This document shows positions 17,514 through 50,988 of a DNA stretch of 64,000 nt, in pieces; the first letter of the stretch is position 1; each line of letters starts with the position of its first letter. The translations under genes and the position numbers were made by a program. The notes below the pieces were generated by a model that ran no database searches, was not told the DNA's origin, and saw nothing but the letters and a program-made list of their open reading frames with translations. Origin of the DNA: Nevskia sp. (GTDB lineage Bacteria; Pseudomonadota; Gammaproteobacteria; Nevskiales; Nevskiaceae); the NCBI RefSeq assembly GCF_021732705.1, contig NZ_JAKFUM010000011.1, positions 186,001 through 250,000 of the forward strand, in the 5' to 3' direction.

Positions 17514-17517
17514 CTCC

Positions 17518-32800: not shown

Positions 32801-35800
32801 CCGTCGTCGCGATCCTCGAAGACCTGTCCGGCGAGACGCCGCCGGCCGACGAGCCGAATCTCAGCTTCCTCGAGATGGGCTTCGATTCGCTGTTCCTGAC
32901 CCAGGTCGCGCAGCGCATCCAGAGCAAGCTGAAGGTCAAGATCACGTTCCGCCAGTTGCTCGGCGACTACGCGACGATCCCGACGCTGTCGCAGTTCCTC
33001 GCCGATTCGACGCCGCGCCCGGCCGTGGCCGCTGCAGCGCCGGCCGCGCCGAGCCCGGCACCGTCAGCCGCGCCGCAGCCGTATGTCGCGCAGATGATGC
33101 CGATGCCGACGATGTCCGCCGCAGCGGTCGCCGGCAGCGGCATCGAGGCGCTGTTCCGCGAGCAGATCGCGGCCATGTCGGCATTGGTCCAGAACCAGAT
33201 GGCAGCGCTGCAGGGCCTCGGCATCAGCGGTGGCTCGGCCCCGGCGATGCCAACAAACGTGGTGCCGCCAGCGGCTGCGACACCCGTTGCCGCGACGCCC
33301 GCAGCACCGGCTGCCGACACCGAAGGCGAATTCCACCGGCCGTCGCGCTTCGACATCTTCAAGGAAGTCCGCAAGAAGACTGCGGATACCTCGGCCTCGC
33401 CGGAACAGGTCGCGCACATCGCCGAACTGGTCGAGCAGTACGCGACACGTCTCGCCGGCTCCAAGGCCCACAGCCAGGAATTCCGCCGGCCGCATGCCGA
33501 TCCGCGCACGGCCTCCGGCTTTCGCGCCGAGTGGAAGGAAATGGTGTTCCCGGTGGTCTGCGCGCGGTCGAAAGGCTCGAAGATCTGGGATGTCGACGGC
33601 AACGAGTACGTCGACCTCGTCAACGGTTACGGCCAGACCGCGTTCGGGCATTCGCCGGACTTCGTGTCCGACGCGGTGAAAGCGCAGCTCGACCGCGGCT
33701 TCGCGATCGGTCCGCAGGCCGACCTCGCCGGCAAGGTTGCACAGATGTTTGCCGAGATGACCGGCAACGAGCGCGTGACCTTCTGCAACACCGGCTCGGA
33801 AGCGGTGATGGCGGCGATGCGCGTGGCCCGCAACATCACCGGCCGCATGAAGGTCGTCGTGTTCAACGGCGACTATCACGGCCAGTTCGACGAAGTGCTG
33901 GTCAAGGGCGTGCAGAAGCCCGGCGCGAAGCCGCGGACCAAGCCGGGTGCCAACGGCATTCCGGAAGAATCGGTCGCCAACATGGTCGTGCTCGACTACG
34001 GCACGCCGGAATCGCTGCAGTGGATTCGGGACAACGCCGAGGACTGCGCGGCGGTCATCGTCGAGACGATCCAGAGCCGCCATCCGCATCTCTACCCGCT
34101 GGAGTTCCTGCGCGAAGTGCGCAAGATCACCGAGGCTGCGGGTACGGTCTTCGTGATGGACGAGGTGGTCACCGGTTTCCGCGTGCATCAGGGCGGCATG
34201 CAGGCGCTGGCCGGCATCGAGGCCGACATGGCGGCCTACGGCAAGGTGGTCGGCGGCGGCATGCCGGTCGGCATCCTCGCCGGCAAGGCCAAGTTCATGG
34301 ATGGCCTCGACGGCGGCTTCTGGCAGTACGGTGACGATTCCTACCCGGAAGTCGGCGTGACCTTCTTCGCCGGCACCTTCGTGCGCCATCCGCTGGTGCT
34401 GGCCGCGGTTCACGCGGTGCTGCTGCACCTGAAGCAGGAAGGCCCGCAGCTGCAGGAGCGCCTGACTGCGCGCACCACCGCGCTGGTGGCCGATCTCAAC
34501 GCGATCTTCGCCGAAGGCGGCCTCAAGACCCGCATCGAAAGCTTCTCGAGCTGGTTCTATTTCAACCTGTCGGGCGAGCATCCGCTGGCGACGCTGTTCT
34601 TCTATCACCTGCGCCTGCGCGGCATTCACATTCAGGACGGCTTCCCGTGCTTCCTGACCACGGCGCACAGCGACGAGGATCTCGACCGCATCCGCCGCGC
34701 GTTCCGCGAAGCCGTGAACGAGCTGCGCAAGGTCGGCATCTTCGGCGCAACGGCCCCGGCGCTGGCTGCAGCGCCGGCAGCCGCGGTGGCGACGGTGGCC
34801 GCCCTGCCGCCGGCCGAAGTGCCGAAGGCGATTCCGGCGCACGAGGCCAGCCAGCCGGCGCAGGCCGGCCTGCCGCTGACGCAACCGCAGGTCGAGATCT
34901 GGCTGTCGGCGCAGCTTGGCGAGGAAGCGTCGTGCGCGTTCAACGAGTCGGTGTCGCTGCGCATGAACGGCACGCTGAATCCTGAAGCGCTGCAGCACGC
35001 GTTGACCCGCGTCGTCGCCCGCCACGACGCGCTGCGCGCCTCGTTCAGCGAGACCGGCGAGACGATGAACATCGCGGCACCTGCCGCCTTCGCCTACCCG
35101 ACCGTCGACGTGTCCGGTGCCGACGCCGAAGCCCGGCTTGCCGAATTGCTCGACGAAGACGCGCGCACGCCGTTCGATCTCGTCGCCGGCCCGCTGATGC
35201 GCGCCAAGCTGGTCCGCCTCGCGCCGACCCAGCACGTGCTGATGATCACGGCGCATCACATCGTCTGCGACGGCTGGTCCGTCAACGTCATCGTCAACGA
35301 ACTGGCCGACATCTACGCTGCCGCCTGCGAAGGCCGGGTTGCCGAACTCGCGGCACCGCTGCCGTTCAGCACCTACGCCCGGACCGAGATCGAGCGCAAT
35401 GCCGCCGATGGCGCGAAGACCGAGGCGTTCTGGCTGAAGGAGTTCGAGGCGCCGGTGACGCCACTGGACCTGCCGACCGATCGTCCGCGCGGTGCGCTGC
35501 GCGGCTATCACGGCGCCAGCCTGTGCCGCCGCATCGACGCCGAGCTGTACAAGACGGTCAAGAAGTCCGGCGCCCGCCTCGGCAGCACGCTGTTCGCAAC
35601 CCTGCTGGCCGCATTCGAGGCGCTGGCCGGACGTCTGAGCGGGCTCGAAGAGGTGGTGGTCGGCGTGCCGACCGCCGGCCAGTCGCTGCTCGAAGACCAG
35701 GTCCTGGTCGGCCACTGCGTGAACTTCCTGCCGATCCGCGGCGCCTGGTCGAAGGACATGAAGGTGTCCGAGCATCTGGGCGCAGTCGCCAAGCAGGTGC

Positions 35801-38049
35801 TGAACGCGTTCGAGCACCAGAGCTACACCTTCGGCACGCTGGTCCGCCGGCTCACCGAGCGCGGCCTGCTGAAGCGCGAACCGAACCGCCTGCCGCTGAC
35901 CGAAATCCAGTTCAACCTCGAACGTCTGGCCGATCGCCTGCAGCTGCCGGGCCTCACCGTCGATGTCGCGCCGAACGCCAAGGCCTTCGTCAATTTCGAC
36001 ATCTTCCTGAACGTCATCGAGTCGAACGACGGCCTGCGGCTGGACTGCGACTACAACACCGAGCTGTACGACGAAGCGACGATCGGCCGCTGGCTCGACG
36101 CCTATCAGGCGCTGCTGCAGGCGTTCGTCGCCGATCCGGCGCAGCCGCTGGTCAAGGCCAACTGCCTGCTGCCGGCGGCGCGCGAACAGCTGCTGACCGC
36201 CTTCAACCACACGGCCAGCGACTATCCGCGCGAACACTGCGTGCACCAGCTGTTCGAGACGCGCGCCGCCGCGAGCCCGGACGCACCGGCCGTGAGCTTC
36301 GGCGACACCACGCTGAGCTACCGCGAGCTGAATGCGCGGGCCAACCGCTTCGCCAACCTGCTGCTGGCGCGCTCGGCGTCGAACCAGCCGGTCGGCGTGC
36401 TGATCGAGCGTTCGACCGACATGCTCGCCGCGCTGCTCGGCGTGATGAAGGCCGGCCGCACCTACATCCCGCTCGATCCGACGCACCCGGCCGCGCGCCT
36501 CAAGCACATCCTCGGCGAAGCGAAGATCTCGGCACTGATCACCGATGATCCGACCGCGATCGGCACGATCGACGTCGGCGCGCCGGTGATCGAACTGAGC
36601 CGCGATGCCGCCGCGCTCGATGCCGCGTCCGCCGACAAGCCGAGCGTGGCGACGAACGCCGAGAGCATCGCGTACACGATCTACACCTCGGGGTCGACCG
36701 GCCTGCCGAAGGGTGTCGAAGTCAGCCACCGCGCGGTGGTCAACCTGCTGATGGCCATGGCGCGCCAGCCCGGCCTGAGCCGCGACGACGTGCTGTTCGC
36801 CGTGACCACGATCTCGTTCGATATCGCAGCGCTCGAACTGTTCCTGCCGCTGATCGTCGGCGCCCGCGTGGTGATTGCCGAGCGCGAAGAACTGGCCGAC
36901 GGCTTCCGGCTGCTGAGCCACCTTGAAAGCGTGAAGGCGACCGCGATGCAGGCCACGCCGGCGACCTGGCGCATCCTGCTCGAAGCCGACTTCAAGCCGA
37001 AGGCCGGCTTCAAGATGCTGTGCGGCGGTGAAGCGCTGCCGCGCGAACTGGCGAATCGCCTGATCGCCGCCGGCGACGGCCAACTGTGGAACATGTACGG
37101 CCCGACCGAGACCACGATCTGGTCATCGTGCGATCGCGTCACCGCCGGCGACGAGCCGATCAGCATCGGCAAGCCGATCGCCAACACCCAGTTCCACATC
37201 CTCGATGCCAACGATCAGCCGGTGCCGCTCGGCGTCGCCGGTCAGCTGCACATCGGCGGCGACGGCCTGGCGCGCGGCTACTACCAGCGCGAAGCCCTGA
37301 CCGCGGAGAAATTCATCGCCAATCCGTTCGGCGCCGGCAGGATCTATCGCACCGGCGACCTCGCCCGCTGGCTGCCGGACGGCCGCGTGCAGCATCTCGG
37401 CCGCATGGATCACCAGACCAAGCTCAGAGGCTTCCGCATCGAGCTGGGCGAAATCGAAGCCGGGCTGATGACCCACGGCGGCGTGGCCAATGCCGCCGTG
37501 CTGCTGCGCGAGGACACGCCGGGCGCGCCGCGTCTCGTCGCGTACTACCAGCTGGCACCGAGCATCAGCCGCAGCCCGTCCGACCTGCGCGCCGCGCTCG
37601 CCCTGCATCTGCCGGAGTACATGATCCCGGCGGCGTGGCTGGAACTGCCGCAGCTGCCGCTGACGCCGAACGGCAAGATCGACCGCCGCGCACTGCCGGT
37701 GCCGGATGCCGCGCAGACGGTTGAAGCCGAGTACCACGCCCCCACATCCGACACCGAAGCGACGTTGGCGCGCATCTGGGCCGAAGTGCTGAAGCGCGAG
37801 CGCGTCGGCACCGGCGATGACCTGTTCGCACTCGGCGCCGATTCGATCCAGATCTTCCAGATCGCGGCCCGCGCCAACCGCGAGAACATCAAGCTGACGG
37901 CGAAGCAATTGATCCAGAGCCGCACCATCTCGGTGCTTGCGAAGTCGCTGGCCGCCGCCCCGGCGGAGGCCCCGGCCGCTACCGGCAAGGCGCTGCCGAC
38001 GCTGGCGCAGTTCCAGCGGAAGCGCCGCACCGGCACCGAAATCCGGTAA
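29893..38049 (+). CDS. Hybrid PKS-NRPS: KS-AT-ACP-aminotransferase-C-A-T
   Basis: 2718 residues. KS about 17-440 (Cys199 in SACSTSLLA, His335 in CHGTAT, His375). AT about 548-830 (Ser645 in GHSIG, HAFH at 745-748, a malonyl-CoA signature). ACP with Ser999 in GFDSLFLTQ. An Ala/Pro-rich linker. Then a class III PLP aminotransferase related to glutamate-1-semialdehyde aminotransferase, about 1150-1610 (Asp1423 in FVMDEVVTGF, Lys1451). C domain about 1655-2100 (intact HHIVCDG at 1788-1794). A domain about 2115-2610. T domain with Ser2651. No ketoreductase is present, so the beta-ketone is available for amination, as in iturin- and microcystin-type synthases. The A-domain residues read D-I-L-Q-L-G-M-I-W, the glycine pattern. 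Start overlaps the previous stop (ATGA). Confidence 0.92.
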   Translation: MNADPNLPESADDAPPPGGIAIIGMAVRLPGADSGCSTVEQFWQNLAAGRESITRFSDAELEDAFDADTRAAPNFVKARPILRGIENFDAEFFGMYAKEAELTDPQHRVLLECAWEAFEHAGHDPAQFGGNIGVFAGSSINTYFLRHVMTDRQKVADFTSGYQVSQYPQLLGAGHDFTATRIAYKFDLRGPAINLNSACSTSLLAVAQACQSLMLYQSDMALAGGVSISLPQQRGYQHLEGGMASADGHCKSFDADATGTVFGSGAGMVLLKRLEDALADGDTVYAVIRGCGVNNDGAGKVGFTAPSVEGQAGCIEMAHAAAGVDPRAISYVECHGTATPLGDPIEIAGLTRAFRSATDDAQFCRIGSVKSNIGHLDAAAGVSGLIKTTLALHKRQIPASLHYTRPNPQIDFASTPFFVNTALTPWHCDGPRIAGVSAFGVGGTNVHVVVEEAPAAVRDDRDAGPQLLVLSARNAAALAAARDNLAAHLRATPSASLADVAWTLQAGRRGFDQRCAIVASSVEQAIARLASAEPARVASGAKPAQPSPVVFMFPGQGAQYPDMGAGLYAAEPVFRDAVDRCAAILAPHLGLDLRTLLYPKADADGAAKALMSTLAAQPAIFTIEYATAQLWLSLGIAPTAMIGHSIGEFVAATLSGVMTLDDALAIVAARGRLMAELPGGAMLSVRLPESELLPLLDSGSGSGLAIAAINGPSLCVVSGPFDAIEAFETRLTERGSVHRRLHTSHAFHSAMVEPIVAPLREVVAKARLSAPTIPYVSCVSGTWISAEQATSPDYWARHARVPVRFADGLATVAADGAPLLLEVGPGNVLTTLATQITKGRGLTITPSLPDAEREIADVDMVLSALGKLWIAGHVPDWRALHGGTRQRIALPTYPFQRSRHWLDAPAVGDVSAAALPARREAPAATAVARDSAPAADAAPNSSFPVALASQDTPVTTFATADAHLESIRATVVAILEDLSGETPPADEPNLSFLEMGFDSLFLTQVAQRIQSKLKVKITFRQLLGDYATIPTLSQFLADSTPRPAVAAAAPAAPSPAPSAAPQPYVAQMMPMPTMSAAAVAGSGIEALFREQIAAMSALVQNQMAALQGLGISGGSAPAMPTNVVPPAAATPVAATPAAPAADTEGEFHRPSRFDIFKEVRKKTADTSASPEQVAHIAELVEQYATRLAGSKAHSQEFRRPHADPRTASGFRAEWKEMVFPVVCARSKGSKIWDVDGNEYVDLVNGYGQTAFGHSPDFVSDAVKAQLDRGFAIGPQADLAGKVAQMFAEMTGNERVTFCNTGSEAVMAAMRVARNITGRMKVVVFNGDYHGQFDEVLVKGVQKPGAKPRTKPGANGIPEESVANMVVLDYGTPESLQWIRDNAEDCAAVIVETIQSRHPHLYPLEFLREVRKITEAAGTVFVMDEVVTGFRVHQGGMQALAGIEADMAAYGKVVGGGMPVGILAGKAKFMDGLDGGFWQYGDDSYPEVGVTFFAGTFVRHPLVLAAVHAVLLHLKQEGPQLQERLTARTTALVADLNAIFAEGGLKTRIESFSSWFYFNLSGEHPLATLFFYHLRLRGIHIQDGFPCFLTTAHSDEDLDRIRRAFREAVNELRKVGIFGATAPALAAAPAAAVATVAALPPAEVPKAIPAHEASQPAQAGLPLTQPQVEIWLSAQLGEEASCAFNESVSLRMNGTLNPEALQHALTRVVARHDALRASFSETGETMNIAAPAAFAYPTVDVSGADAEARLAELLDEDARTPFDLVAGPLMRAKLVRLAPTQHVLMITAHHIVCDGWSVNVIVNELADIYAAACEGRVAELAAPLPFSTYARTEIERNAADGAKTEAFWLKEFEAPVTPLDLPTDRPRGALRGYHGASLCRRIDAELYKTVKKSGARLGSTLFATLLAAFEALAGRLSGLEEVVVGVPTAGQSLLEDQVLVGHCVNFLPIRGAWSKDMKVSEHLGAVAKQVLNAFEHQSYTFGTLVRRLTERGLLKREPNRLPLTEIQFNLERLADRLQLPGLTVDVAPNAKAFVNFDIFLNVIESNDGLRLDCDYNTELYDEATIGRWLDAYQALLQAFVADPAQPLVKANCLLPAAREQLLTAFNHTASDYPREHCVHQLFETRAAASPDAPAVSFGDTTLSYRELNARANRFANLLLARSASNQPVGVLIERSTDMLAALLGVMKAGRTYIPLDPTHPAARLKHILGEAKISALITDDPTAIGTIDVGAPVIELSRDAAALDAASADKPSVATNAESIAYTIYTSGSTGLPKGVEVSHRAVVNLLMAMARQPGLSRDDVLFAVTTISFDIAALELFLPLIVGARVVIAEREELADGFRLLSHLESVKATAMQATPATWRILLEADFKPKAGFKMLCGGEALPRELANRLIAAGDGQLWNMYGPTETTIWSSCDRVTAGDEPISIGKPIANTQFHILDANDQPVPLGVAGQLHIGGDGLARGYYQREALTAEKFIANPFGAGRIYRTGDLARWLPDGRVQHLGRMDHQTKLRGFRIELGEIEAGLMTHGGVANAAVLLREDTPGAPRLVAYYQLAPSISRSPSDLRAALALHLPEYMIPAAWLELPQLPLTPNGKIDRRALPVPDAAQTVEAEYHAPTSDTEATLARIWAEVLKRERVGTGDDLFALGADSIQIFQIAARANRENIKLTAKQLIQSRTISVLAKSLAAAPAEAPAATGKALPTLAQFQRKRRTGTEIR

Positions 38050-38079: not shown

Positions 38080-41000
38080 ATGAACAGCCTGCGGAATCCG
38101 GATTTCGAGCCCGACAAGATTGTCGAGGCCGATTCCATGGAGGTCGAGTTCGACAGCGGCGTCTCCGACGCGGCTGTCGATGACGGCCCCCTGCTGTTCC
38201 CGTGCTCGATCGCCCAGGAACGCTTCTGGCTGCTGGATCGTCTCGAACCGGGCAACTCGTCACTGAATGTCGCGGTGCGCTGGCGACTGCTCGGCAAGGT
38301 CGACACCGCACTGCTCGAGAAGGCGTGGCTGCACCTGATCAATCGCCACGAAGTGCTGCGGACGATCTTCCGCGAAGTCGACGGCAAGCCGGTGCAGGAA
38401 GTGCTGCCGCGCTCGCAGTTCCGGCTCGCCGAGATCGATCTGACCGGCCTGCCGGAAGATGCCCGCAATGCCGAAGGCGATCGCATCGGCGTGATCGAGG
38501 CGCGCGCACCATTCGATCTGATTGGCGGTCCGCTGGTCCGCGCCACCCTGCTGCGCTATGCCCCGGACGACGCGGTGATCCTCGTCACCACGCACCAGAT
38601 CGTGTCCGACGGCTGGTCGATCGGCGTCATGGCGCGCGAGATGGGGTTGATCTACCAGGCGCTGCGCGCCGGCAAGCCGATTCCGCTCGAAGATCTGGCG
38701 CTGCAATACGCCGACTACGCGCAGTGGCATCTGGAATGGACGCGCGAGCGCGGCACGGCGGCGGAGGAGGCGTACTGGTCGAAGCAGCTGGCCGGCCTGA
38801 AGCCGTTCAAGGTGCCGGCCGACAAGCCGAAACCGCTGGTGCCGACGACCAACGGCGCGATCACGTCGATCGTGCTGCCGCGGGAGTTGACCAACCGGGC
38901 GCAGTCCGTCAGCGCCGATCACGGCGCCACGCTGTTCGCGGCGGCATTCGCCGCGCTGACCACGATGCTGCACCGCTACACCGGCGAGACCGAGATCGTC
39001 ATCGGCACCCAGGTGTCCGACCGCGATCAGGTCGAGCTCGAAGGCATGGTCGGCCAGTTCGTCAATTCGCTGATCCTGCGCAACGACCTGTCCGGCAATC
39101 CGAGCTTCGGCACGCTGATCGAGCGCCTGCGCGATGTCAGTGCGCAGGCGCTGGAGCATCGGCACATCCCGATCGAGCGCCTGCTGTCGATGGTCAAGGG
39201 CGAGCGCAACAGCGCCCAGAGCGCGCTGATCTCGGTCAACTTCATCTTCCAGCGCACGTTCATCCAGAACGACGACTACGGCGATTTCCGGCTGGTCGAC
39301 ATGCCGTCGCTGCCGGCGGGCGCGATCTACGACCTGAATTTCTTCATGGTCGAACGGCCGGATGGCTGGCGCTTCTCGTGCCAGTTCAACACCGACCAGT
39401 TCGAGCGCGAGACCGTCGACCGCCTGCTGGGCTACGTGCAGACGGTGCTCGATCTCGCCACCCGCAAGCCGAGCCTGCGCCTCGCCGAGATCGACCTGAT
39501 CGGCGCCGACGAGCGTGCGCGGCTGCTGCCGCCGGTGGCCGAGGCCGCGGAGTTCGTCAGCATTGGCCAGCGCTTCGCGGCCCAGGTGGCACGCGTGCCG
39601 GACGCCATCGCCATCGTCGGTGACGAGCGCCGCCACACGTTCCGCCAGGTCGATTTCGAATCGGCACGACTGGCCCATCACCTGCTGTCTCGCGGCGTCG
39701 CAGCCGGCTCGCGGCTCGGCATCTGCCTGCCGCGCGCCGCCGAACTGCCGATCGCGCTGCTGGCTGCCCAGCGCGTCGGCGCAAGCGTCGTGCTGCTCGA
39801 TCCGCAGGAGCCGCCGACGCGACTTGCGGCCTTCATCGACGCCGGGCGCATCAGCGCCGTGGTGCTGCGCACGGCGCAGGCTGGGCTGTTCGCCGCGACA
39901 CGAACCTCGCTGATCGATATCGACGCCGAAGCCGCCGTCATCAGCCGCGGGCCAGGCAGCATCGCCGACGCCTACGTCCGGCCGGAAGACGAGGCCGTGC
40001 TGAGCGTGCAGGGCTGGTCGAAAGGCAAGGCCGTGGCGTTCCGGTATTCGCATGGCGCGCTGGCCGAACGGCTCGCGACGCTGGCCGCGCAGCCGGGTCT
40101 CGGTGACGGTGACGTGCTGGTCGCCACCGCGCCGGTCTCGCTCGACTTCGCGCTGGCCGAACTGCTGCTGCCGTTGCTGGTCGGCGCCCGTCTGGTGATC
40201 GCCGGCGAGCGCGAGTCGCTCGACATCCGCCGGCTGACGACCCTGCTGATGACGCTGCGCACGGACCGCGTGACGATGGCCAGCACGCCGGTGCTGTGGT
40301 CGCGCCTGCTCGCCACCGAATGGGATGGCATCCCGCGCCTGCGCATGTGGACCCATGGCGAGCGTCCGGACGCGCGGCTGGCGCAGCGCATGCTCGAACT
40401 CGGCCACGAACTGTGGACGCTGTACACGGTGCCGGGCGTGGCGCTGTTCGCGACGGCGCAGCGTCACGAGCGTGCCGACGAAGTCGCGCTCGTCGGCATC
40501 GCCAACGGGACCTGCCGCATACGCGTCCTGAATGCCGAAGGCCAGCTGCTGCCGACCAGCGCCGTCGGCGAGCTGCATGTCGGGGGCGTCGGCGTGTCGT
40601 TCGGCATGCTCGACGAGGATGCCGAGCGCGAAAGCTTCCGCGCCGATCCGTTCGTGGCCGATGCCTCGCTGCTGCGCACCGGCGATCTCGGCCGCGTGCG
40701 GCTCGATGGCCGGGTCGAATGGCTGGGCCGGCAGGACCGCGCGCGTCGGCTCGACGGGCATCGGATCGATCCTGCCGAGGTCGAAGCCGCGCTGACCCGT
40801 CATCCGAACATCGCCGACGCCGCCGTGACCTTCGCGAATGACGGCAACGGCCAGCCGGCCCTGACCGCGTGGGTCGTGCTCAGCGGTGGCGGCGGCATCA
40901 GCGATGTCGGCGAGGCGCTGCGCACGACATTGGCGCAGCGGCTGCCGCCACGCCTGCTGCCACAGCCGCTGCAGATCGTGCCGTCGCTGCCGCGCGCGGC

Positions 41001-42147
41001 GGATGGCACGGTCGATTTCCGCCAGTTGCGCCGACCGGCCACGCCGCCGGAACTGCGGCTCGGTGCGCCCAGCGCGATCGAAGGCCGTCTGACCACGCTG
41101 TGGGCCTCGATGCTCGGCCGTGACGACCTCGACGCCGAATCGAACTTCTTCGAGCTCGGCGGCCATTCGTTGCTGGCGGCGCGCATGCTCGGCAAGGTCG
41201 AAGCCCTGTTCGGGCGACGCGTCAGTCTGGCCGCGCTGTTCCGCGCACCGACGATCCGCGAACTGGCGCAACTGCTGGAGCGCAGCGACTCGCGCGACTT
41301 CGATTTCCGCCAGGTGGTGAAGCTGCAGCCGCACGGCTCGCGGCCACCGATGATCGCGATCAACAACACCGGCAGCTATTACCTGCTGGCCAAGCGCCTC
41401 GGGCAGGACCAGCCGGTGACCTCGCTGCAGCTGTTCGATCCCTCGGTGCAGGGCGAGGCGCTGCCAAAGACGCTGGAAGAGATCGCCGCCGGCTACGTGC
41501 AGCTGATCCGCCGCGTGCAGCCGCAGGGCCCGTATTCGCTGGTCGGCTGGTGTGTCGCGGGTGCGCTTGCCTTCGAGGTCGGCCGGCAGCTGCAGGCCGA
41601 AGGCCAGACCGTGCGCAACCTGTACCTCATGGACTCGTGGGTGCCGAACTACCTGAAGCGCCTGTCGCCGCTGCGCCGCCTGATCAACGGCTACACGCTG
41701 CGCTGGCAGTTCATCTTCGAGGACTGGCAGAGCAAGCAGCAGACCGGCAAGGGCTTCGGCGCGTTCCTCGCGAACCGCGGCTTCGTCAAGGCGCTGCGCG
41801 AGCTGTTCGGCGGAGGCGGTCGCATGCCGCGAGCGGAAGCCGCGATGGCCCAGCAGGCGGCGCCGGAGGATTACGACCAGTGGCTGCTCGGCTACCTGCA
41901 GGACGTGACCTCGCGCTACGAGCCAAAGACGTTCGACGGTCGCATCACGCTGTTCCGCAGCTACCGGGAACCGACCGGCCTGTGGTTCGATCCGCATGCC
42001 GGCTGGGGGCCGTTTGCCCGGCAGGGCGTGGAGCTGCACATGGTCGACGGCGATCACTTCACGATGTTCCAGGACCCCGGCGTCAGCCAGATGGCCGCGC
42101 AGATCACCGCGCAACTGGATCAGGCCGCGTCCGGTCCTGCGAGCTGA
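38080..42147 (+). CDS. Terminal NRPS module C-A(degenerate)-T-TE
   Basis: 1355 residues. C domain about 40-480, whose catalytic motif reads HQIVSDG (172-178), so the second His is Gln. A-like domain about 500-1000, missing its key motifs: A3 is replaced by VLSVQGWSKGK (640-650), the GPTE motif by TVPGV after Tyr782, and the A10 Lys by Thr977 (DGTVDF). It keeps only weak A7/A8 remnants (LRTGDLGRVRLDG, DGHRIDPAEVEAAL). T domain intact (Ser1030 in LGGHSLLAARML). Thioesterase about 1075-1345 with GWCVAG, so Cys1158 replaces Ser; Asp1185 and His1326 complete the triad. It likely releases the product. Activation of its own amino acid looks unlikely, so loading in trans or skipping are options. Confidence 0.9.
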   Translation: MNSLRNPDFEPDKIVEADSMEVEFDSGVSDAAVDDGPLLFPCSIAQERFWLLDRLEPGNSSLNVAVRWRLLGKVDTALLEKAWLHLINRHEVLRTIFREVDGKPVQEVLPRSQFRLAEIDLTGLPEDARNAEGDRIGVIEARAPFDLIGGPLVRATLLRYAPDDAVILVTTHQIVSDGWSIGVMAREMGLIYQALRAGKPIPLEDLALQYADYAQWHLEWTRERGTAAEEAYWSKQLAGLKPFKVPADKPKPLVPTTNGAITSIVLPRELTNRAQSVSADHGATLFAAAFAALTTMLHRYTGETEIVIGTQVSDRDQVELEGMVGQFVNSLILRNDLSGNPSFGTLIERLRDVSAQALEHRHIPIERLLSMVKGERNSAQSALISVNFIFQRTFIQNDDYGDFRLVDMPSLPAGAIYDLNFFMVERPDGWRFSCQFNTDQFERETVDRLLGYVQTVLDLATRKPSLRLAEIDLIGADERARLLPPVAEAAEFVSIGQRFAAQVARVPDAIAIVGDERRHTFRQVDFESARLAHHLLSRGVAAGSRLGICLPRAAELPIALLAAQRVGASVVLLDPQEPPTRLAAFIDAGRISAVVLRTAQAGLFAATRTSLIDIDAEAAVISRGPGSIADAYVRPEDEAVLSVQGWSKGKAVAFRYSHGALAERLATLAAQPGLGDGDVLVATAPVSLDFALAELLLPLLVGARLVIAGERESLDIRRLTTLLMTLRTDRVTMASTPVLWSRLLATEWDGIPRLRMWTHGERPDARLAQRMLELGHELWTLYTVPGVALFATAQRHERADEVALVGIANGTCRIRVLNAEGQLLPTSAVGELHVGGVGVSFGMLDEDAERESFRADPFVADASLLRTGDLGRVRLDGRVEWLGRQDRARRLDGHRIDPAEVEAALTRHPNIADAAVTFANDGNGQPALTAWVVLSGGGGISDVGEALRTTLAQRLPPRLLPQPLQIVPSLPRAADGTVDFRQLRRPATPPELRLGAPSAIEGRLTTLWASMLGRDDLDAESNFFELGGHSLLAARMLGKVEALFGRRVSLAALFRAPTIRELAQLLERSDSRDFDFRQVVKLQPHGSRPPMIAINNTGSYYLLAKRLGQDQPVTSLQLFDPSVQGEALPKTLEEIAAGYVQLIRRVQPQGPYSLVGWCVAGALAFEVGRQLQAEGQTVRNLYLMDSWVPNYLKRLSPLRRLINGYTLRWQFIFEDWQSKQQTGKGFGAFLANRGFVKALRELFGGGGRMPRAEAAMAQQAAPEDYDQWLLGYLQDVTSRYEPKTFDGRITLFRSYREPTGLWFDPHAGWGPFARQGVELHMVDGDHFTMFQDPGVSQMAAQITAQLDQAASGPAS

Positions 42148-42238: not shown

Positions 42239-43216
42239 ATGAACGCTGAAATTCGCGACTACTCCGAGGCCGGCGCTCGCCGACACGGTCTCGCCGGCAA
42301 CGGCACGCTGCTGAATCTGGACCGTGCCGAGTTCGAGGCCAACTTCAACCGGAACTTCTTCGAGGTCCAGCACCAGCTGGCCGACCATCCGCTGTTCCAG
42401 ATCCCGCGCCTGCTGGAACTGGCCGACGAGATGACCAAGAAGTGGCCGAAGGACATCTACTTCGACGCCGGCGTCGACGACATCGGCCAGCGCTGGAGCG
42501 GCGCGCCGGCCGACATCACGGTCGAGGACCTGATGCGCCGCATCGAGACCTCGAAAGCCTGGATCGATTTCAAGTCGGCCGAGCGCAGCAAGGAGTACGG
42601 CAAGGTCCTGAACACGATCATCTGCGACATCCTGAAGATCAGCGGCCGCCAGCTCGAAAAGAACATGCGGCGCAAGCAGATGGCGATCTTCGTGACCTCG
42701 CCGAACCGCATCAGCACGTACCACATCGACAGCGAAGTGAACTTCCTGCTGCAGATCCGCGGCGAGAAGGAGATCAGCCTGTTCGACCGCAAGGATCGCG
42801 AGGTGCTGCCGGAAGTCGAGATCGAGCGTTCATGGACGGTCGACGTCAACGCTGCCGTCTACAAGCCGCATCTGCAGGACCGCGCCACGGTGTTCAAGCT
42901 GCGGCCCGGCAATGGCGTGCACATTCCGGTCAACAGCCCGCACTGGGTCAAGAACGGCAACAACATCTCGGTGTCGGCGGCGATCCTCTACCACTCGTGG
43001 GACAGCGCCTACTACAACCTGTACAGCACCAATTACTACCTGCGCCGGATGGGGCTGAATCCGACGCCGCCGTTCCAGTCGAAGCTGCTCGACGCACTGA
43101 AGCAGCCGGTCGGCGCGGCGATCCAGGCCTATCGGACGGCGCGCTTCGGCAACCTGCGCAACATCGGGCCGAACGCCGACGGCATTCACGATCGCACGCC
43201 GGACGACGCGTTCTGA
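42239..43216 (+). CDS. JmjC/cupin-like Fe(II) 2-oxoglutarate oxygenase candidate (copy 1)
   Basis: 325 residues. A JmjC-like cupin core has the metal triad HxD...H: His162 and Asp164 in STYHIDSEVNF, with His235 in VNSPHWVKNG as the likely third ligand. The region after the first ligands (LLQIRGEKEISLFD) is typical of cupin-8/JmjC proteins. Such enzymes hydroxylate amino-acid side chains or small molecules. It directly follows the terminal NRPS gene on the same strand, and a clear paralogue sits at 50026-50988. The shared phrases TSPNRIS/SSPNRIT, YHxDxExN and GIHIPV/GVHIPV show common ancestry. Likely a tailoring hydroxylase (inference). ATG 42239 was chosen; upstream sequence in this frame overlaps the NRPS gene. 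Confidence 0.75.
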   Translation: MNAEIRDYSEAGARRHGLAGNGTLLNLDRAEFEANFNRNFFEVQHQLADHPLFQIPRLLELADEMTKKWPKDIYFDAGVDDIGQRWSGAPADITVEDLMRRIETSKAWIDFKSAERSKEYGKVLNTIICDILKISGRQLEKNMRRKQMAIFVTSPNRISTYHIDSEVNFLLQIRGEKEISLFDRKDREVLPEVEIERSWTVDVNAAVYKPHLQDRATVFKLRPGNGVHIPVNSPHWVKNGNNISVSAAILYHSWDSAYYNLYSTNYYLRRMGLNPTPPFQSKLLDALKQPVGAAIQAYRTARFGNLRNIGPNADGIHDRTPDDAF

Positions 43217-43381: not shown

Positions 43382-44878
43382 GTGTCCTTGAAGCTGTTCG
43401 AGTTGCTGGTCTGGCTGGCTGCGGCCCTGCAGCTCGGCCGCTGCTTCGTGGCCAGCCCGCGCGGCTCGACGACTGTCGCGCTGGCGCTGCTGGCCGCGAG
43501 CGTCGGCCTGATCCTGCTGCAGGTCTTTTTCGAAGGCTGGCGCAAGCCGATCGTATTCGCGGCGGTGGCGCTGCTGGGACTGTGCCTCATGCCGCTCGTA
43601 CTGTCGCTGCTGAAGCTGCCGGGCGACGGCATCCTTGCGCGGCTCGGGCTGGCTGCGGCCGGTCTGCTGCTGATCGCCAGCACCGCGAGCAACTGGCTGC
43701 GTCCGGCGGTCAGCTACCCGACGCCCGGTGGCGAGTACGCCGTGATCGGCCAGATCGCGTTTCCGGTGCTGGGCCAGTCACCGGTCGGCGATGTCCCGAC
43801 CCCCGACGAACTGCGCCATCCGCCGCCGTTGCTGAAGCTCTGGTACCCGGCCGTGGCCCCGGGCGGCAGTCGCCTGCTCGATCCGGCCTTCCTTGCGGAG
43901 CGGGTCGCCGCCTTCGGCGAGCGCGGCAAGCAGCTGCCGGAACCGGCCATCCGCAACGCGCCGCCGGTCGATCTGCCATCGCCAGCGCCGCTGCTGTTCT
44001 ACTTTCCCGGCTGGCCGGGGGTGGCGATCGAAAGTGCCGCGCTGGTTCGCGAGCTGGTCAGCCATGGCTACTACGTCGCCACGATCGAGTACCCGGGACG
44101 ACAGGCGGGGATGTCCGACGCACGCTGGCAGGCACTCAAGGCGGAGCTCGAGCGCGATTTCTACTACGGCAGCGAAGCGCGCTATCTCGAACTGGTCGAG
44201 ATCTCGAAGGACCGCGTGCGCAGCCGCGCGCGCGACGCCTCGGCCGCGCTGACCCGGCTCGCGGAGGTCGCGGCAACGCCCGGCCAGGTCTTCAGCGGCC
44301 GTTTCGACGCCAGCCGCGCCGGCTTCGTCGGCTTCTCGCTTGGCGGCGCGGTGGCCGTGCAGGCCGCGAATCAGGACCCGCGCTTCATCACGGCGATCAA
44401 CCTCGACGGCCGCATGTGGGCCGAGGGCCGTGCCGATGGCGCGAACAAGCCGATGCTGATGATCAACGAGGAACTGGCACCGATCGATCCGGCGCTGTTC
44501 ACCGCCGATGATCCGGACACGCGCTACAACGCGATCGAGGATCAGACCGACGGCGACGCGCTGCTGCGCAACCTCGCCCGGCACGGGGGCCAGCACGTGA
44601 TGATCGCGGGCACGCAGCATTTCAATTTCGCCGATCTCTGCCTGACCTCGCCGCTCGATCGCATCGCGGGGCGCGGCCCGATTGCGCCGCTGCGCGGCTA
44701 CGAGATCCTGCACGCCTATGTGCTGGCCTGGTTCGACCGCGCCCTGCGAGGCAAGACGTCCCCGCTGCTGGACAGCGATCGGTCGCCGTATCCCGAGGTC
44801 ACCAGCCGCTACTGGCCAACGCCGGTCCGCAACGGCGTGATGGCTCCCGCTACCTCCTCGATCGACGCAACGCCATGA
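43382..44878 (+). CDS. Membrane-anchored PAF-acetylhydrolase-like alpha/beta hydrolase
   Basis: 498 residues. The first ~110 form four hydrophobic segments. The rest is an alpha/beta hydrolase of the platelet-activating-factor acetylhydrolase/dienelactone hydrolase type, with the nucleophile in GFSLGGAVAVQ, the strand APLLFYFPGWPGVAIES before it, and a late His in GTQHFNFADL. The membrane part should anchor it in the inner membrane; the sequence does not show which side the catalytic part faces. The start is GTG 43382, just after a G-run. The next gene overlaps by four bases, tying it to the GT-C-like proteins. It could cleave an ester or amide of the cluster product, or be a resistance or editing enzyme (inference). 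Confidence 0.75.
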   Translation: MSLKLFELLVWLAAALQLGRCFVASPRGSTTVALALLAASVGLILLQVFFEGWRKPIVFAAVALLGLCLMPLVLSLLKLPGDGILARLGLAAAGLLLIASTASNWLRPAVSYPTPGGEYAVIGQIAFPVLGQSPVGDVPTPDELRHPPPLLKLWYPAVAPGGSRLLDPAFLAERVAAFGERGKQLPEPAIRNAPPVDLPSPAPLLFYFPGWPGVAIESAALVRELVSHGYYVATIEYPGRQAGMSDARWQALKAELERDFYYGSEARYLELVEISKDRVRSRARDASAALTRLAEVAATPGQVFSGRFDASRAGFVGFSLGGAVAVQAANQDPRFITAINLDGRMWAEGRADGANKPMLMINEELAPIDPALFTADDPDTRYNAIEDQTDGDALLRNLARHGGQHVMIAGTQHFNFADLCLTSPLDRIAGRGPIAPLRGYEILHAYVLAWFDRALRGKTSPLLDSDRSPYPEVTSRYWPTPVRNGVMAPATSSIDATP

Positions 44879-46473
44879 CCCTGAACCGCGAAGCCGATCC
44901 GCGCTCGACCGATCTCCTGCGCTTCCTGATGCTGTTCGGCAGCATGTTGGCGATGGTGCTCGCCTCGTGGCCGACCGAATTCTCGTTCGATCTCTGGGTG
45001 TTCAAGGATCGCGGCAACTTCCTGAACTTCGCCTACCTGCTCGACAAGGGCTTTCGGCCCGGGGTCGACACCTATTACCTCTACGGCCTGCTGCCGGTAC
45101 TGCTGCAGGACGTGGTGTTCGACCTGTTCGGCCGCGGCCCTTGGCCGATCATCGGCCTGCACGTCTGCTACCTGGCGTTGATGAGCGCCGCGCTGACCGT
45201 GGTGGTCCGGCACACGCCGAAGCCGATGCTGTGGAATCTCGGCGCCATCGCGCTGGTGCCGATCATCATCTGGGTCAATCCGAACCTGTCGTACGTGCTG
45301 GTGCAGGTGACGATGCTGTGGTCGATCGCGCTGCTGCTGGAACGGCGCTACCGGCTGGCCGTGGTGGTCTCGGCCTTCGGCTGCTGGAGCGTGCCGAGCA
45401 TGCCGCTGGTCCTGTCGGCGTCGCTGGTGGTGCTGCTGTTCGCCTGCTGGTGGCTCGAAGGGCCGCGCACGCTGAAGCGGCTGCTGCAGCTCGGCTATCC
45501 CGGCCTGCTCGCGTATCTCGGCATCGGGGCCGGGCTCGCCGCGTACTTCGGCATCGACTCGGTGCTGGCGACCGCGCTGCCGTTTCAGGGCGCCTCGTTC
45601 TACAAGGCCGTGAACTACGGTTTCCTGAGCTCGCTGAAGGTCTTCCTGTATCCCGGCCAGACCGAATCCCGTCCGAACTGGTCGGCACTGCGCTACTTCG
45701 TGTTCGACCGCGCCACCTGGTGGGTCCTGGCCACGGTGTTGCTGACCGTCTTCGGCACCCGCGGCTTCCTGCGCATGTGGCGCGAGCGGCAGCTCGATCC
45801 GAAGGCCCTGTTCGTGCTGTTCTGCGCCGTGATGCAGATCGTGTTCATCCTCGTGGCCTACGGCACGCCGCCGCAGCACATCATCTACGACCCGCTGGTT
45901 GCAGCCGGCACCTTGCTGGGCCTGTCGATGCTCGCCGCGTCGCGCGCCCGCAACCTTCTGATCGGCGTGTTCTTCACGGTCACGGCGCTGAGTCACGGCA
46001 ATCAGGCCTCGTACACCTGGTGGCTGTGGAAAGCGACGAAGCCGAGCCCGGACAGCGCCGGCTTCTATTCGCCACCGGAGTTCACCAGCGCGTGGAAGGA
46101 AGTCGTCGATCTGTCGAAGCAGCGGCCGGTGTTCCTGCTGTCGTACGCCACCGGCGTGCATCACTACTTCCCGACGATCGATACCGCCGAAAGCTGGCTG
46201 ATCCAGTGGGGCCAGACCTTGCCGCCGGACCGTGAGCGGCTGCTGGCCAAGCTGCGCACGGCCGAGGTGGTGGTCGAGGACGTCACCGGCATCACCACGA
46301 TCTTCGAGCGCGACGAGGAGATCAAGGCCGAGCTGGCCAAACTCTGCATGTTCAGGATGAATCCGTACTTCATCTACTGGAGCCGCACGCCGGACCCGGT
46401 CACCGGCGAGTGCAGGACCTACGTCAAGGAACTGCCGGCCGACCCCCGGATGCGCGGCGAGAACGCGGTCTGA
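44875..46473 (+). CDS. GT-C-like polytopic membrane protein (tandem copy 1)
   Basis: 532 residues with about ten hydrophobic segments and a C-terminal soluble part. After the first helix the loop reads VFKDRGNFLNFAYLLDKG, followed by GVDTYYLYGLLPVLLQD. This is the layout of GT-C glycosyltransferases, with an Asp in the first periplasmic loop, though no named family is recognised. Strongly similar to the next gene over most of its length (GRGPWPIIG, ATALPFQGASFYK, SYATGVHHYFPT), so a tandem duplication. It overlaps its neighbours by four bases upstream and one base downstream (TGATG). Likely a sugar transfer enzyme using polyprenyl-phosphate donors (inference). Confidence 0.65.
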   Translation: MTLNREADPRSTDLLRFLMLFGSMLAMVLASWPTEFSFDLWVFKDRGNFLNFAYLLDKGFRPGVDTYYLYGLLPVLLQDVVFDLFGRGPWPIIGLHVCYLALMSAALTVVVRHTPKPMLWNLGAIALVPIIIWVNPNLSYVLVQVTMLWSIALLLERRYRLAVVVSAFGCWSVPSMPLVLSASLVVLLFACWWLEGPRTLKRLLQLGYPGLLAYLGIGAGLAAYFGIDSVLATALPFQGASFYKAVNYGFLSSLKVFLYPGQTESRPNWSALRYFVFDRATWWVLATVLLTVFGTRGFLRMWRERQLDPKALFVLFCAVMQIVFILVAYGTPPQHIIYDPLVAAGTLLGLSMLAASRARNLLIGVFFTVTALSHGNQASYTWWLWKATKPSPDSAGFYSPPEFTSAWKEVVDLSKQRPVFLLSYATGVHHYFPTIDTAESWLIQWGQTLPPDRERLLAKLRTAEVVVEDVTGITTIFERDEEIKAELAKLCMFRMNPYFIYWSRTPDPVTGECRTYVKELPADPRMRGENAV

Positions 46474-48095
46474 TGACGAGCCCTGCCATGCCGACCGAAA
46501 TAGCGACTCCGTTCCGTTTCACGTCCGACGACGCGCGCCGCGCCGCGATCCTGTTTGCCGGCTTCGTCCTGCTGCACCTCGTGTCGTGGCCGGTGGAGTA
46601 CTCGTTCGGCTACTGGGTGTTCGGCGATCGCGGCAACTTTCTGAATCTCGCCTATCTGCAGGATGCCGGGCTGCGGATCGGCGTCGACACCTACTACCTG
46701 TACGGTCTGCTGCCGGTGCTGGTGCAGGACGGCCTGTTCGCCGTGTTCGGGCGCGGACCGTGGCCGATCATCGGCTGCCATGTCGTCTATCTCGCCCTGA
46801 TGGCTGGCGGCTTCGCGGTGCTGGTCCGCAACGCGACCCATCCGCTGCGCTGGACGCTGCTGCTGTTCGCGATGAGCCCGATCATCATCTGGGTCAACCA
46901 GAACGTGCAGTACCTGTTCGTGCACGTGTCGATGATCTGGGCGCTGGCGCTGGTGCTCGAACGGCGACTGCCGCTGGCGCTGGTCGTGTCGGCGATCGGC
47001 TGCTGGAGCGTGCCGAGCCTGCCGCTGGTGCTGACCGCCGGGTTGCTGCTGCTGATCGCCATCGACTGGTGGCGCAGCGAAAGCCGCAGCCTTGCCGCGC
47101 TGCTGCGCGCCGTGGTTCCGGCGGCGATCGCCTACCTCGCGATCGGCGCGGCATTGACTCTGCGCTATGGCTTCGAATCGGTGCTGGCCACGGCACTGCC
47201 GTTCCAGGGCGCGTCGTTCTACAAGAGCGTCGACTACGGCCTGTTCACGTCGCTGAAGATCTTCCTGTACCCCGGACGCACCGAAGCGCGGCCGGAATGG
47301 TCGCCGCTGCGCTACTACCTGTTCGACCGCGCGACCTGGTGGCTGCTGAGCTCCGCGCTGCTGACCGTGTTCAGCGCAGCGGCATTGAAGGACGTGCTGG
47401 TCAAGCGGCGTCCTTCCGCGCGCAGCCAGTTCATCCTGCTCGCCGGCGGTTTGCACATCGTGTTCGTGCTGGTCGCCTACGGCATTCCGAGCCAGCACGT
47501 GTTCTACGACTTCCTGCTGGTGGCCGGCGTCGTCGTCGCATTGGCCGGCATCACCCAACCCACGCTGCAGCGCGGGCTGATCGGCATCTGGGCGCTGGTG
47601 GCGGTCATGAGCCTCGGCAATCAGGCCGGCAACACGCGCTGGCTGTGGAAATCGACCCAGCCCAGCGCCGAAAGCCGCGGCTTCTACGCGTTCCCCGAGG
47701 TGGTGAAGGATTTCGGCGAGATCGTCGCGTTGTCGAAGCAGACCAAGCTGCTGCTGCTGACCTATGCCACCGGCGTGCATCACTACTACCCGACGGTGCA
47801 CACGCCGCAGAGCTGGATCATCAACTACGGCCAGCTGCTGCCGGCCGACAAGACCCGGCTGCTGGCCAGCATTGCCGATGCCGAGCGCGTGGTGCTCGAC
47901 ATGACCCGCATCACCACGTTCTTCGAGCGCGACCCGGATGTGGTCAAGGCGCTGTCGGCGATGTGCCTGGTCAGCCGCGGCAACCACTTCGCGATCTGGC
48001 GCCACACGCCGCCCGATCCGGCGACCGGCCAATGCGAGTCCTGGGTGAAGCCGCTGCCGGAAGACATCCGGCTGCGCGGAGAATTCGCGCTGTGA
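46473..48095 (+). CDS. GT-C-like polytopic membrane protein (tandem copy 2)
   Basis: 540 residues, paralogue of the preceding gene. The loop after the first helix is VFGDRGNFLNLAYLQDAG and GVDTYYLYGLLPVLVQD. Other matching stretches are GRGPWPIIG, ALPFQGASFYKSVDYG and TYATGVHHYYPT. Start ATG 46473 overlaps the previous stop by one base (TGATG). The stop overlaps the GtrA start, so the gene is in the same transcript. The two copies may act on different positions or acceptors, or form a heterodimer; this cannot be decided here. Confidence 0.65.
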   Translation: MTSPAMPTEIATPFRFTSDDARRAAILFAGFVLLHLVSWPVEYSFGYWVFGDRGNFLNLAYLQDAGLRIGVDTYYLYGLLPVLVQDGLFAVFGRGPWPIIGCHVVYLALMAGGFAVLVRNATHPLRWTLLLFAMSPIIIWVNQNVQYLFVHVSMIWALALVLERRLPLALVVSAIGCWSVPSLPLVLTAGLLLLIAIDWWRSESRSLAALLRAVVPAAIAYLAIGAALTLRYGFESVLATALPFQGASFYKSVDYGLFTSLKIFLYPGRTEARPEWSPLRYYLFDRATWWLLSSALLTVFSAAALKDVLVKRRPSARSQFILLAGGLHIVFVLVAYGIPSQHVFYDFLLVAGVVVALAGITQPTLQRGLIGIWALVAVMSLGNQAGNTRWLWKSTQPSAESRGFYAFPEVVKDFGEIVALSKQTKLLLLTYATGVHHYYPTVHTPQSWIINYGQLLPADKTRLLASIADAERVVLDMTRITTFFERDPDVVKALSAMCLVSRGNHFAIWRHTPPDPATGQCESWVKPLPEDIRLRGEFAL

Positions 48096-48502
48096 CCGTC
48101 AGGCTGCCGCGCGAGGTGGCGACGCAGTTCCTGCGCTTCGTGCTCGTGGGCGGCACCGCCACCGGCATTCATTACGGCATCCTGATTTTGCTGCACGAGC
48201 ACTACGGATGGCCGCTGGTGCCGGCGACCTCGACCGGCTTCGCGATCAGCGCGATGTTCAACTTCACCGCCAGCTACTTCTTCACGTTCCGGAGCGCCGC
48301 GCCAATCACCCGCTCGATCGGCCGCTACGTGGTGGTGTCCGGCACCGGGCTGGCGCTGAATGCCGGCATCTTCTGGCTGCTGAACAAGGCGCTGCACAGC
48401 CACTACATGGTGGCGCAGGTGCTGGCGACCGGGACGGTGATGATGTGGAACTTCAGCCTCGGCCGCCTGTTCACGTTCGCCGGCAATCGCGCGCCGCGCT
48501 GA
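48092..48502 (+). CDS. GtrA-family small membrane protein
   Basis: 136 residues with four hydrophobic segments (FLRFVLVGGTATGIHYGILILL first) and the GtrA-like motifs ISAMFNFTASYFFTFRS and WNFSLGRLFTFAG. GtrA proteins are thought to flip or assist polyprenyl-phosphate-linked sugars across the membrane for GT-C enzymes. GTG 48092 overlaps the previous stop by four bases. It ends the rightward run of genes that started with the NRPS; the next gene converges on it. Confidence 0.88.
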   Translation: MTVRLPREVATQFLRFVLVGGTATGIHYGILILLHEHYGWPLVPATSTGFAISAMFNFTASYFFTFRSAAPITRSIGRYVVVSGTGLALNAGIFWLLNKALHSHYMVAQVLATGTVMMWNFSLGRLFTFAGNRAPR

Positions 48503-50025: not shown

Positions 50026-50988
50026 TCAGCGCGGCGTCCAGACCTGCCAGGTCGGCGGCGGCGGGGCCGGCTTCAACAGACCCCGCAGGCCTTGCAGGCT
50101 GGTCGCCGAAGCCGCTTTCATACCATCGAGCATTGCCGAACGGCCGGGCGATGACGGATTGATGCCGAGCTTGCGCAGCCGGTGGTTCAGCCAGTAACTC
50201 TTGGCGCGCTGCGCGACCGACTTCAGCTCGTAGTTGATCGACAGCGCCACCGAGATGTTGTCGCCGTTCTGCACCCAGTGCGGGGCCGTGACCGGAATGT
50301 GAATGCCCTGCCCGGCCTTGAGGTCATAGACGGTGGCGTGCGCCTGCTTCGCCTCGCCGTAGCGTGCGGCACTCGGCGCGCCGGAGAAATAGCCTTCCAG
50401 TTCCTCGTCGGTCACCTGCTGCGCCTTGGTGTGATCGAAGACGTGGAAGGTCTTGTCGCCGGTGACCTGCACGAGGTAGTTCAGCTCGGCATCGAAGTGG
50501 TACGGCGTGATCCGGTTCGGTGACGACACCAGGATCAGCGATTCGCCGACGATCACGTCGTCGCGCATCTGCGCGCCCGAATACTCGACGAACTTCGACA
50601 GGATTTCCTGCAACACCGGGCCGATCACCGGGTCCTGCTCGGTGTGCTTCATGATCACGATCGAGTTGTTGTCGGCAATGCCGCGGATCGTGTCCTGCAG
50701 CGAATAGCGCTCGGCCATTCCCTTTTCCCAGGGATCGTTGATCGAGACCCGGCCGTTCGACCAGTACGCGAAGTCCGGATGCGCCGGCAGCCGCTTCGAC
50801 AGCTCGACCAGGCTGTCGAGTTCGAACAGCGGATTGCCCTTCAGGCCGTGCTCGAAGCAGAAGCTCTGACGGTTGTAGTGGCGGGCGAAATCGCCGTTCG
50901 GGTCGTTCAGCACCGGCCGGCCGTTCTGGCGCAGCGGATCGTGGTTCGGTGCCGTTGCCGGGGTCGGTGTCGCGTGCATGCCTGTCAT
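50026..50988 (-). CDS. JmjC/cupin-like Fe(II) 2-oxoglutarate oxygenase candidate (copy 2)
   Basis: 320 residues. The metal triad is His164 and Asp166 in TPYHFDAELNYLVQ and His237 in VTAPHWVQNG. It resembles the first copy (42239-43216) in the core but has its own N-terminus and a Pro-rich C-terminus (LKPAPPPPTWQVW). Start ATG 50988 is used; ATG 50979 is nearby in frame. It is co-directional with the flippase. Likely a second hydroxylase acting on the same product or on its lipid/glycan carrier (inference). Confidence 0.72.
   Translation of the reverse strand: MTGMHATPTPATAPNHDPLRQNGRPVLNDPNGDFARHYNRQSFCFEHGLKGNPLFELDSLVELSKRLPAHPDFAYWSNGRVSINDPWEKGMAERYSLQDTIRGIADNNSIVIMKHTEQDPVIGPVLQEILSKFVEYSGAQMRDDVIVGESLILVSSPNRITPYHFDAELNYLVQVTGDKTFHVFDHTKAQQVTDEELEGYFSGAPSAARYGEAKQAHATVYDLKAGQGIHIPVTAPHWVQNGDNISVALSINYELKSVAQRAKSYWLNHRLRKLGINPSSPGRSAMLDGMKAASATSLQGLRGLLKPAPPPPTWQVWTPR

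Follow-up and report, generated by a model that had tools for sequence, protein, structure and literature searches.

Inactive adenylation (A) domains are already known from nonribosomal peptide synthetases (NRPSs), as are thioesterase (TE) domains with a cysteine nucleophile and condensation (C) domains tolerant of a mutated second His in their motif. Module 13 of the glidonin synthetase GdnB from Schlegelella brevitalea is a line-ending C-A*-T-TE unit (T, thiolation; an asterisk marks a degenerate domain) whose A domain cannot activate an amino acid. The module has a deletion of the A core and two GxSxG motifs in the TE part, and shows that a unit of this kind can terminate its line by joining an amine (PMC10587159). 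Here we analyse a module of the same order, also line-ending, encoded at positions 38080-42147 of a 64,000-nucleotide stretch of Nevskia sp. DNA (the window; contig NZ_JAKFUM010000011.1, positions 186,001 to 250,000 of the forward strand). In contrast to glidonin, its A domain retains its whole length and bears point lesions, its C motif carries a Gln and its TE a nucleophilic Cys.

Other described systems share single features with it. In kutzneride biosynthesis a module keeps an inactive A* domain, and the stand-alone protein KtzN helps to charge its T domain (cited in PMC10587159). AB3403, a C-A-T-TE protein of Acinetobacter baumannii (PDB 4zxh), combines a Cys nucleophile with a triad Asp in position I (PMC11298585); the type I TEs of ObiF1 (obafluorin) and SulM (sulfazecin) combine Cys with an Asp in position II (PMC6668435, PMC11298585). 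In ObiF, acyl transfer to the TE shields the thioester from solvolysis (PMC6668435). The second His of C domains is described as a positioning residue (PMC7804268), and its mutation does not always abolish condensation (PMC11546977).

In the window, the last unit of a line built of polyketide synthase (PKS) and NRPS parts appears, from its motifs, to have lost the portion that selects an amino acid and to have kept the loading arm (T) and the release enzyme (TE). We tentatively read it, giving this somewhat less than an even chance, as a release module without elongation in a PKS-NRPS line linked to exopolysaccharide (EPS): C* and T would hand the chain to the Cys TE, which would transfer it to a polysaccharide acceptor. 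The combination of features in one clade, the reverse pattern of decay in a second clade and most of all the EPS tie are absent from the open-licence literature matches listed. The module is laid out as follows; omega values throughout are NG86 estimates, rough in a GC-rich genome and compared only within one pair.

38080-42147, forward strand: terminal module C*-A*-T-TE, open reading frame of 1355 aa, Pfam order C-A-T-TE
38200-39528, forward strand: condensation domain with HQIVSDG (Gln173), 303 bits to Pfam Condensation, omega 0.19 against the sister species G016
39574-41034, forward strand: relic adenylation domain, residues 499-985, A3, A5 and A10 Lys lost, omega 0.68
41086-41277, forward strand: thiolation domain, LGGHSLL intact
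41302-42114, forward strand: thioesterase domain, proposed triad Cys1158, Asp1185 and His1326

Pfam places Condensation at residues 41-483 of the 1355-aa protein, AMP-binding at 499-840, AMP-binding_C at 900-976, PP-binding at 1003-1066 and Thioesterase at 1099-1344. The C, A, T and TE domains of a terminal NRPS module are all there, in one protein and in order; the motifs of an active A domain and HHxxxDG are not. Residues 172-178 of the C domain read HQIVSDG, with CAG as the codon of Gln173. Motif A3 is SVQGWSKGKAV; of the ten homologues whose A domain is normal, nine have YTSGSTGxPKG at this place and the tenth, G024, has FTSGSTGRPKG. A5 is YTVPG instead of the YGPTE found in all ten, and A10 has become DGTVDF where the ten have GK, its Lys being replaced by Thr977. 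Despite these lesions the A domain is still full length (499-985); judged by motif, it is inactive. The nucleophile elbow of the TE is GWCVAG, with Cys1158 as the nucleophile. An initial annotation of the locus had reported the loss of A3, A5 and A10, Gln173 in place of a catalytic His and Cys1158 in place of the Ser nucleophile. Alignment with the ten normal-A homologues confirms the first, and both replacements hold.

We looked for relatives at several depths. A search of 61 genomes (that of the window, G000, and 60 relatives) returned six other proteins matching over most of their length. The TE search was positive in ten of 58 genomes of the taxonomic family, G000 included, and gave a match at E <= 1e-20 in 27 of 369 genomes of the class; among the matches listed for the class, G162 (53%) has the one close TE. 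The next, G251, stands at 35% and was rejected as a member of the Cys family, its nucleophile being Ser. Among the best 80 of at least 594 relatives, the Cys-family members are Solimonas soli (41%) and the distant Methylocapsa aurea (33%), and the best TE match in a plasmid collection reaches 32%.

Motifs were compared in twelve proteins, from G000, G016, G017, G001, G024, G009, G014, G075, G067, G069, G162 and Methylocapsa. The TE nucleophile is Cys in all of them. A3, A5 and A10 are normal in ten and lost in two, the window genome and its sister species G016. Six proteins keep the second His of the C motif (G017, G075, G067, G069, Methylocapsa and, as HHxxxDS, G162); it is replaced by Gln in G000, G016 and G024, by Arg in G001 and by Ala in G009, and G014 is devoid of the N-terminal part of the C domain. 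These losses are spread over three tree groups and, the backbone of the tree being unresolved, the number of separate losses is unsettled beyond three. Cys is thus universal in this protein family, and the loss of His and of A occurs in parts of it only: the three departures listed by the initial annotation do not form a single set. It had further held that homologues with normal motifs would indicate decay peculiar to this sequence or a sequencing error. The first half of this proved partly right, as most relatives have a normal A domain, half keep the second His and the A lesion is specific to one clade; the second half did not, since a second species excludes sequencing error. G016 shares the lesions at 67% identity over the whole protein, and the gene is a single open frame without a stop in both sister species. 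A lone pseudogene is likewise dismissed by the second species and by the constraint on C, T and TE.

That constraint is very uneven between domains. For the pair G000-G016, omega (with bootstrap range) is 0.19 (0.14-0.27) in C, 0.68 (0.55-0.84) in A, 0.18 (0.13-0.38) in T and 0.24 (0.16-0.35) in TE; by identity, C is the best conserved domain (87%). In module 2, encoded by the preceding gene, the same pair gives 0.18 for the A domain and 0.12-0.14 for the other domains measured. The pair G009-G014 shows the reverse pattern, with 0.54 (0.41-0.71) in C, 0.24 (0.18-0.31) in A and 0.25 (0.17-0.39) in TE. In the Solimonas pair G075-G069, which has normal motifs, omega is 0.39-0.64 in all five stretches, so that values are contrasted only within one pair. 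Pfam scores agree with these contrasts: for AMP-binding the A-dead pair reaches 141 and 172 bits, eight others 289-317 (G067 and G069 were left out of the scan). For Condensation the same two proteins score 303 and 296 bits, as high as five members of HH type (261-315), and G001 scores 288; in the clade with a decaying C domain, G024 has 204 bits, G009 has 173 and G014 gives broken pieces.

Conserved columns date the changes. Of 137 A-domain columns agreed by at least nine of the ten other homologues, 45 are changed in both sisters, 10 of them to the same residue, with 11 more changed in G000 only and 14 in G016 only; shared replacements include Thr785Pro, Glu786Gly and Thr788Ala. On the simplest reading, the A-domain lesion is older than the split of the two species and drift continued afterwards. 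The C domain has 16 of 72 conserved columns changed in both sisters, 13 identically, and 3 in one species only: it changed in their ancestor and then froze. The identical changes include S379A, R380Q and N381S, at a site which we take to be the C7 region. In the TE, 9 of 85 columns are changed in both sisters and 1 in each alone; in T, none of 22 in both and 1 in G000 alone. A and C each decay in some lineage, and T and the Cys TE are retained in all twelve proteins.

The initial annotation had suggested that the A domain may survive as a structural element. Neutral simulation of this domain gives omega medians of 0.76-1.38 depending on the mutation model, and the observed 0.68 (0.55-0.84) lies at or below them; residual constraint on the relic is possible, though unproven so close to neutral values. 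The same near-neutral figure would suit a terminal module that is dying as a whole. We consider such general decay highly improbable, as C, T and TE are under much tighter constraint than A and the frame is open, without a stop, in both species.

The proteins that precede the module in the line are encoded immediately upstream:

27947-29896, forward strand: A-T loading protein, 649 aa from that start, specificity code by eye DAFWLGGTF(K)
29893-38049, forward strand: KS-AT-ACP-AMT-C-A-T protein including module 2 (KS, ketosynthase; AT, acyltransferase; ACP, acyl carrier protein; AMT, aminotransferase), 2718 aa, A domain intact, code by eye DILQLGMIW(K)

These two genes overlap by 4 bases, and a 30-base gap then precedes the terminal-module gene. 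With codes read by eye in GrsA numbering, we take that of the A-T protein to be Val-like and that of module 2 to be presumably Gly-like; the module 2 codes of G075 and G067 were left out. With the C-A-T part of module 2 as query, matches of 54-86% are found in G016, G017, G075, G067 and G069. No other full C domain was found in the genomes of G024, G014, G162 and G009, the absence being least sure in G009 with its 570 contigs, and no other NRPS module among the genes scanned around that of Methylocapsa, whose whole genome lies outside that scan. The six genomes with the upstream PKS-NRPS protein either keep both His and A (four genomes in two lineages) or have lost both (the two sisters, in one event). 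This joint loss where the upstream protein exists is what chiefly speaks for a non-elongating module, and it happened in a single event. We also considered decay of the C domain as a repeated outcome of a missing upstream module. G024, G009 and G014 form one clade, in which drift may be one event, and G162 and Methylocapsa keep HH without a detected upstream module; the idea was dropped on both counts.

The strongest rival, which we hold to be unlikely, is loading in trans. Another A domain, most simply the Gly-like one of module 2, would charge the terminal T, the C domain with Gln173 would condense, the dead A domain would serve as a spacer and the terminal residue would be kept. The code of module 2 is of the same type as that of the intact terminal A domain of G017 (a DILQ-G-IW pattern), which would make the terminal A domain redundant, and the C domain is under strong purifying selection; for kutzneride, an inactive A* domain dependent on KtzN is reported (cited in PMC10587159). 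Loading in trans nevertheless leaves the loss of His173 alongside A unexplained. Unlike in kutzneride, no dedicated stand-alone partner was seen: the three matches in the genome to the module 2 C-A-T query (E <= 1e-30) are the terminal module, module 2 and the A-T protein. The genome has two C domains; weaker adenylate-forming enzymes are also present elsewhere in it and were left out of the partner comparison.

In the non-elongating reading that we prefer, the three-protein line would belong to an EPS system, with the terminal protein as its release module. The ancestral terminal A domain would have chosen an amino acid, its code being probably Gly-like; on the branch of G000 and G016, A would have died and C lost its second His, so that the terminal module would add no residue. 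The C domain would have been kept to dock the carrier of module 2 and to deliver the finished chain to the terminal T, which would be loaded in this way. We favour such a hand-off because A and the C-domain His are lost together where the upstream protein exists, and C is otherwise frozen. Non-elongating ketosynthases (KS0) of trans-AT PKSs have lost their catalytic His and are retained for chain passing; the parallel with C* is conceptual only, as fold and chemistry differ. The new release or skipping mechanism for which the initial annotation had put the module forward as a candidate still seems a good reading, in the form of skipping or altered release.

As to the last step, Cys1158, Asp1185 and His1326 are invariant in all twelve TEs of the protein family. 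A wider alignment comprises 30 TEs, three of the family and 27 others (drawn from 32 non-family loci whose TE match was sufficiently long; five were left out). Asp and His stand in every row of it, and 20 rows have Ser and 10 have Cys as nucleophile, three of the Cys rows being family members and seven non-family NRPS TEs. The oxyanion loop (residues 1093-1101) carries NNTG in ten of the twelve family TEs, compared to HxxGG in many others, with HNTG in G162 and NDAM in Methylocapsa. By sequence only, Asp1185 is placed in position I and not in position II after strand β7. AB3403, which has the same Cys nucleophile and position-I Asp, is the best profile match to the TE among solved structures; its single-sequence match is local only (query residues 26-118), and the comparison covers the TE. 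ObiF1 and SulM share the Cys but differ in the position of the Asp, and the elbow of SulM is Gln-Cys-Asn instead of the Trp-Cys-Val seen here (PMC6668435, PMC11298585). The initial annotation had invoked release of strained rings, as in obafluorin. With Asp1185 apparently in position I and Cys common in other TEs, we rejected this as the default for a Cys TE. The Cys TE would rather take the chain as a thioester and transfer it, with an amine or a hydroxyl of a polysaccharide building block as the most likely acceptor; a Cys thioester awaiting an acceptor other than water would fit transfer to a glycan rather than hydrolysis.

A free amine, perhaps of an amino sugar, might also be joined by the C domain itself, straight from the carrier of module 2, with A*, T and TE mainly stabilising the protein. 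Module 13 of glidonin, whose C domain adds putrescine, works along these lines (PMC10587159), and C is the domain with the highest identity (87%) between the sisters. We find this improbable: the second His of glidonin is said to keep a positioning role, where here there is Gln, and a TE triad kept in twelve of twelve proteins is not required of a bystander.

Unexpectedly, the module is linked to, and co-occurs with, a conserved Wzy-type EPS operon. The operon adjoins the module in nine of eleven genomes: G017, G001, G024, G014, G075, G067, G069, G162 and, within the limits of a short contig, G009. In G017 its genes match Poly_export/SLBB, Wzz/GNVR, a ParA-type kinase, Wzy_C, Acyl_transf_3, a HAD protein and two GT2. 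A flippase-type membrane protein (F13) usually follows; it was read by eye, and the one homologue scanned has no Pfam match. The HAD protein (F8), taken as marker of the operon, is found in 11 of the 58 genomes of the taxonomic family (ten module carriers and G035) and in 2 of the 369 of the class (G000 and G162, the same two whose module is close). Module and F8 occur together in 11 genomes, the module alone in none, F8 alone in one (G035) and neither in 414, among at most 426 genomes; this is an upper figure, as the two class samples of 369 were taken to be the same because their shown rows agree, and overlap with the 58 family genomes is possible beyond G000. G035 has the EPS operon and a fused A-T-KS-AT-ACP-AMT-C-A-T synthase (a single chain of 3180 aa, L142:6703-16242) beside the EPS-neighbourhood families F10, F14 and F16; it has no Cys TE module, and Pfam finds no thioesterase domain in the synthase. 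Two group 1 glycosyltransferases and an F18 hydrolase lie within 10 kb of the Methylocapsa module, and the window itself holds relatives of the EPS-neighbourhood families F11, F12, F18, F19, F20 and F22. This tie hints that the peptide machine decorates that polysaccharide. No NRPS-polysaccharide system of such a kind appears among the open-licence literature matches listed, as judged by titles and the beginnings of abstracts.

Several points weigh against a non-elongating release module in an EPS system. We know of no C domain shown to shift a chain between carrier thiols. The main counter-example is G001, where the second His is lost (HR) and the A domain is good. Fragments of another PKS-NRPS line, 36-45% identical to the protein of the window, are present at contig ends of G001; they seem to come from a separate line that has a hydrolase end of its own and were rejected as the upstream protein, so that G001 was not counted. 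If that other line feeds the module of G001, the rule that A goes with His wherever there is a partner breaks. A C domain with Gln173 may still condense, given that such mutations do not always abolish the reaction (PMC11546977). On the EPS side, Fisher's test for co-occurrence of module and F8 (p ~7e-21) is without correction for phylogeny, and Methylocapsa is outside its count. The EPS operon is not linked to the module precisely in G000 and G016, where it lies on another contig (C8) and about 390 kb away, respectively; the search there recovered seven of the nine core families, all but F2 and F3, and a relative of F2 stands beside the NRPS genes of G016. The F8 match crosses one TGA in both genomes, in G000 at the extreme end of the match, where its frame stops.

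A bolder form, which strikes us as doubtful, makes the whole family of modules with an invariant Cys TE a peptidyl or aminoacyl transferase that decorates EPS; the terminal module of the window would be its non-elongating version, an NRPS counterpart of the non-elongating ketosynthase. Nature has in any case provided a domain-knockout series, with intact lineages, an A-less lineage and a C-decay clade, all keeping T and the Cys TE. The series makes testable what a C domain can do without its second His and whether a terminal module can release a chain without elongating it. If the EPS tie is functional, peptides from assembly lines join the known ways in which bacteria decorate their surface polysaccharides.

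Around the line, a simple home-made gene caller, the source of the neighbourhood genes in general, gave the following neighbours:

25368-26792, forward strand: GMC-type oxidoreductase (F20), sharing 65% identity with a gene at the end of the G162 EPS operon
42239-43216, forward strand: Cupin_8 (JmjC-like) putative oxygenase, directly 3' of the terminal module
43382-44878, forward strand: alpha/beta hydrolase of family F18, which also adjoins the module in G016 and G017 and lies at most 10 kb from it in Methylocapsa
48506-49954, reverse strand: polysaccharide flippase-type protein (F19)

The first gene after the module suggests another role for C*, that of a platform recruiting an oxygenase such as this Cupin_8 protein, with the TE taking the chain directly from the carrier of module 2. 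A related family, F12, occurs in the neighbourhoods of G016, G024, G014 and G162. Since F12 also accompanies modules whose A domain is normal or for which no upstream module was detected, its link to the lost His is weak, and the TE would have to bypass its own conserved T domain; we rate this reading as distinctly improbable.

The Cupin_8 gene is one of a pair (42239-43216 and 50026-50988) that flanks a block of hydrolase, membrane-protein and flippase genes, with relatives in the EPS neighbourhoods of G024, G014 and G162. Inside this block, at 44875-48502, two proteins of about 530 aa (family F21, 54% alike, no Pfam match), perhaps membrane glycosyltransferases, are followed by a GtrA-like domain; F21 and the small gene after the F21 pair are common to the window and G016. 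At 16602-20989, four consecutive genes encode LPG_synthase_TM, HAD-UbiA, FAD_binding_4 and short-chain dehydrogenase proteins, which presumably resemble the pathway from polyprenyl-phosphate ribose to an arabinose donor, of the DprE1/DprE2 kind. Finally, a gene pair at 54772-57749 overlaps by 4 bases and is possibly a prophage remnant, its second member weakly matching a T4-like portal protein.

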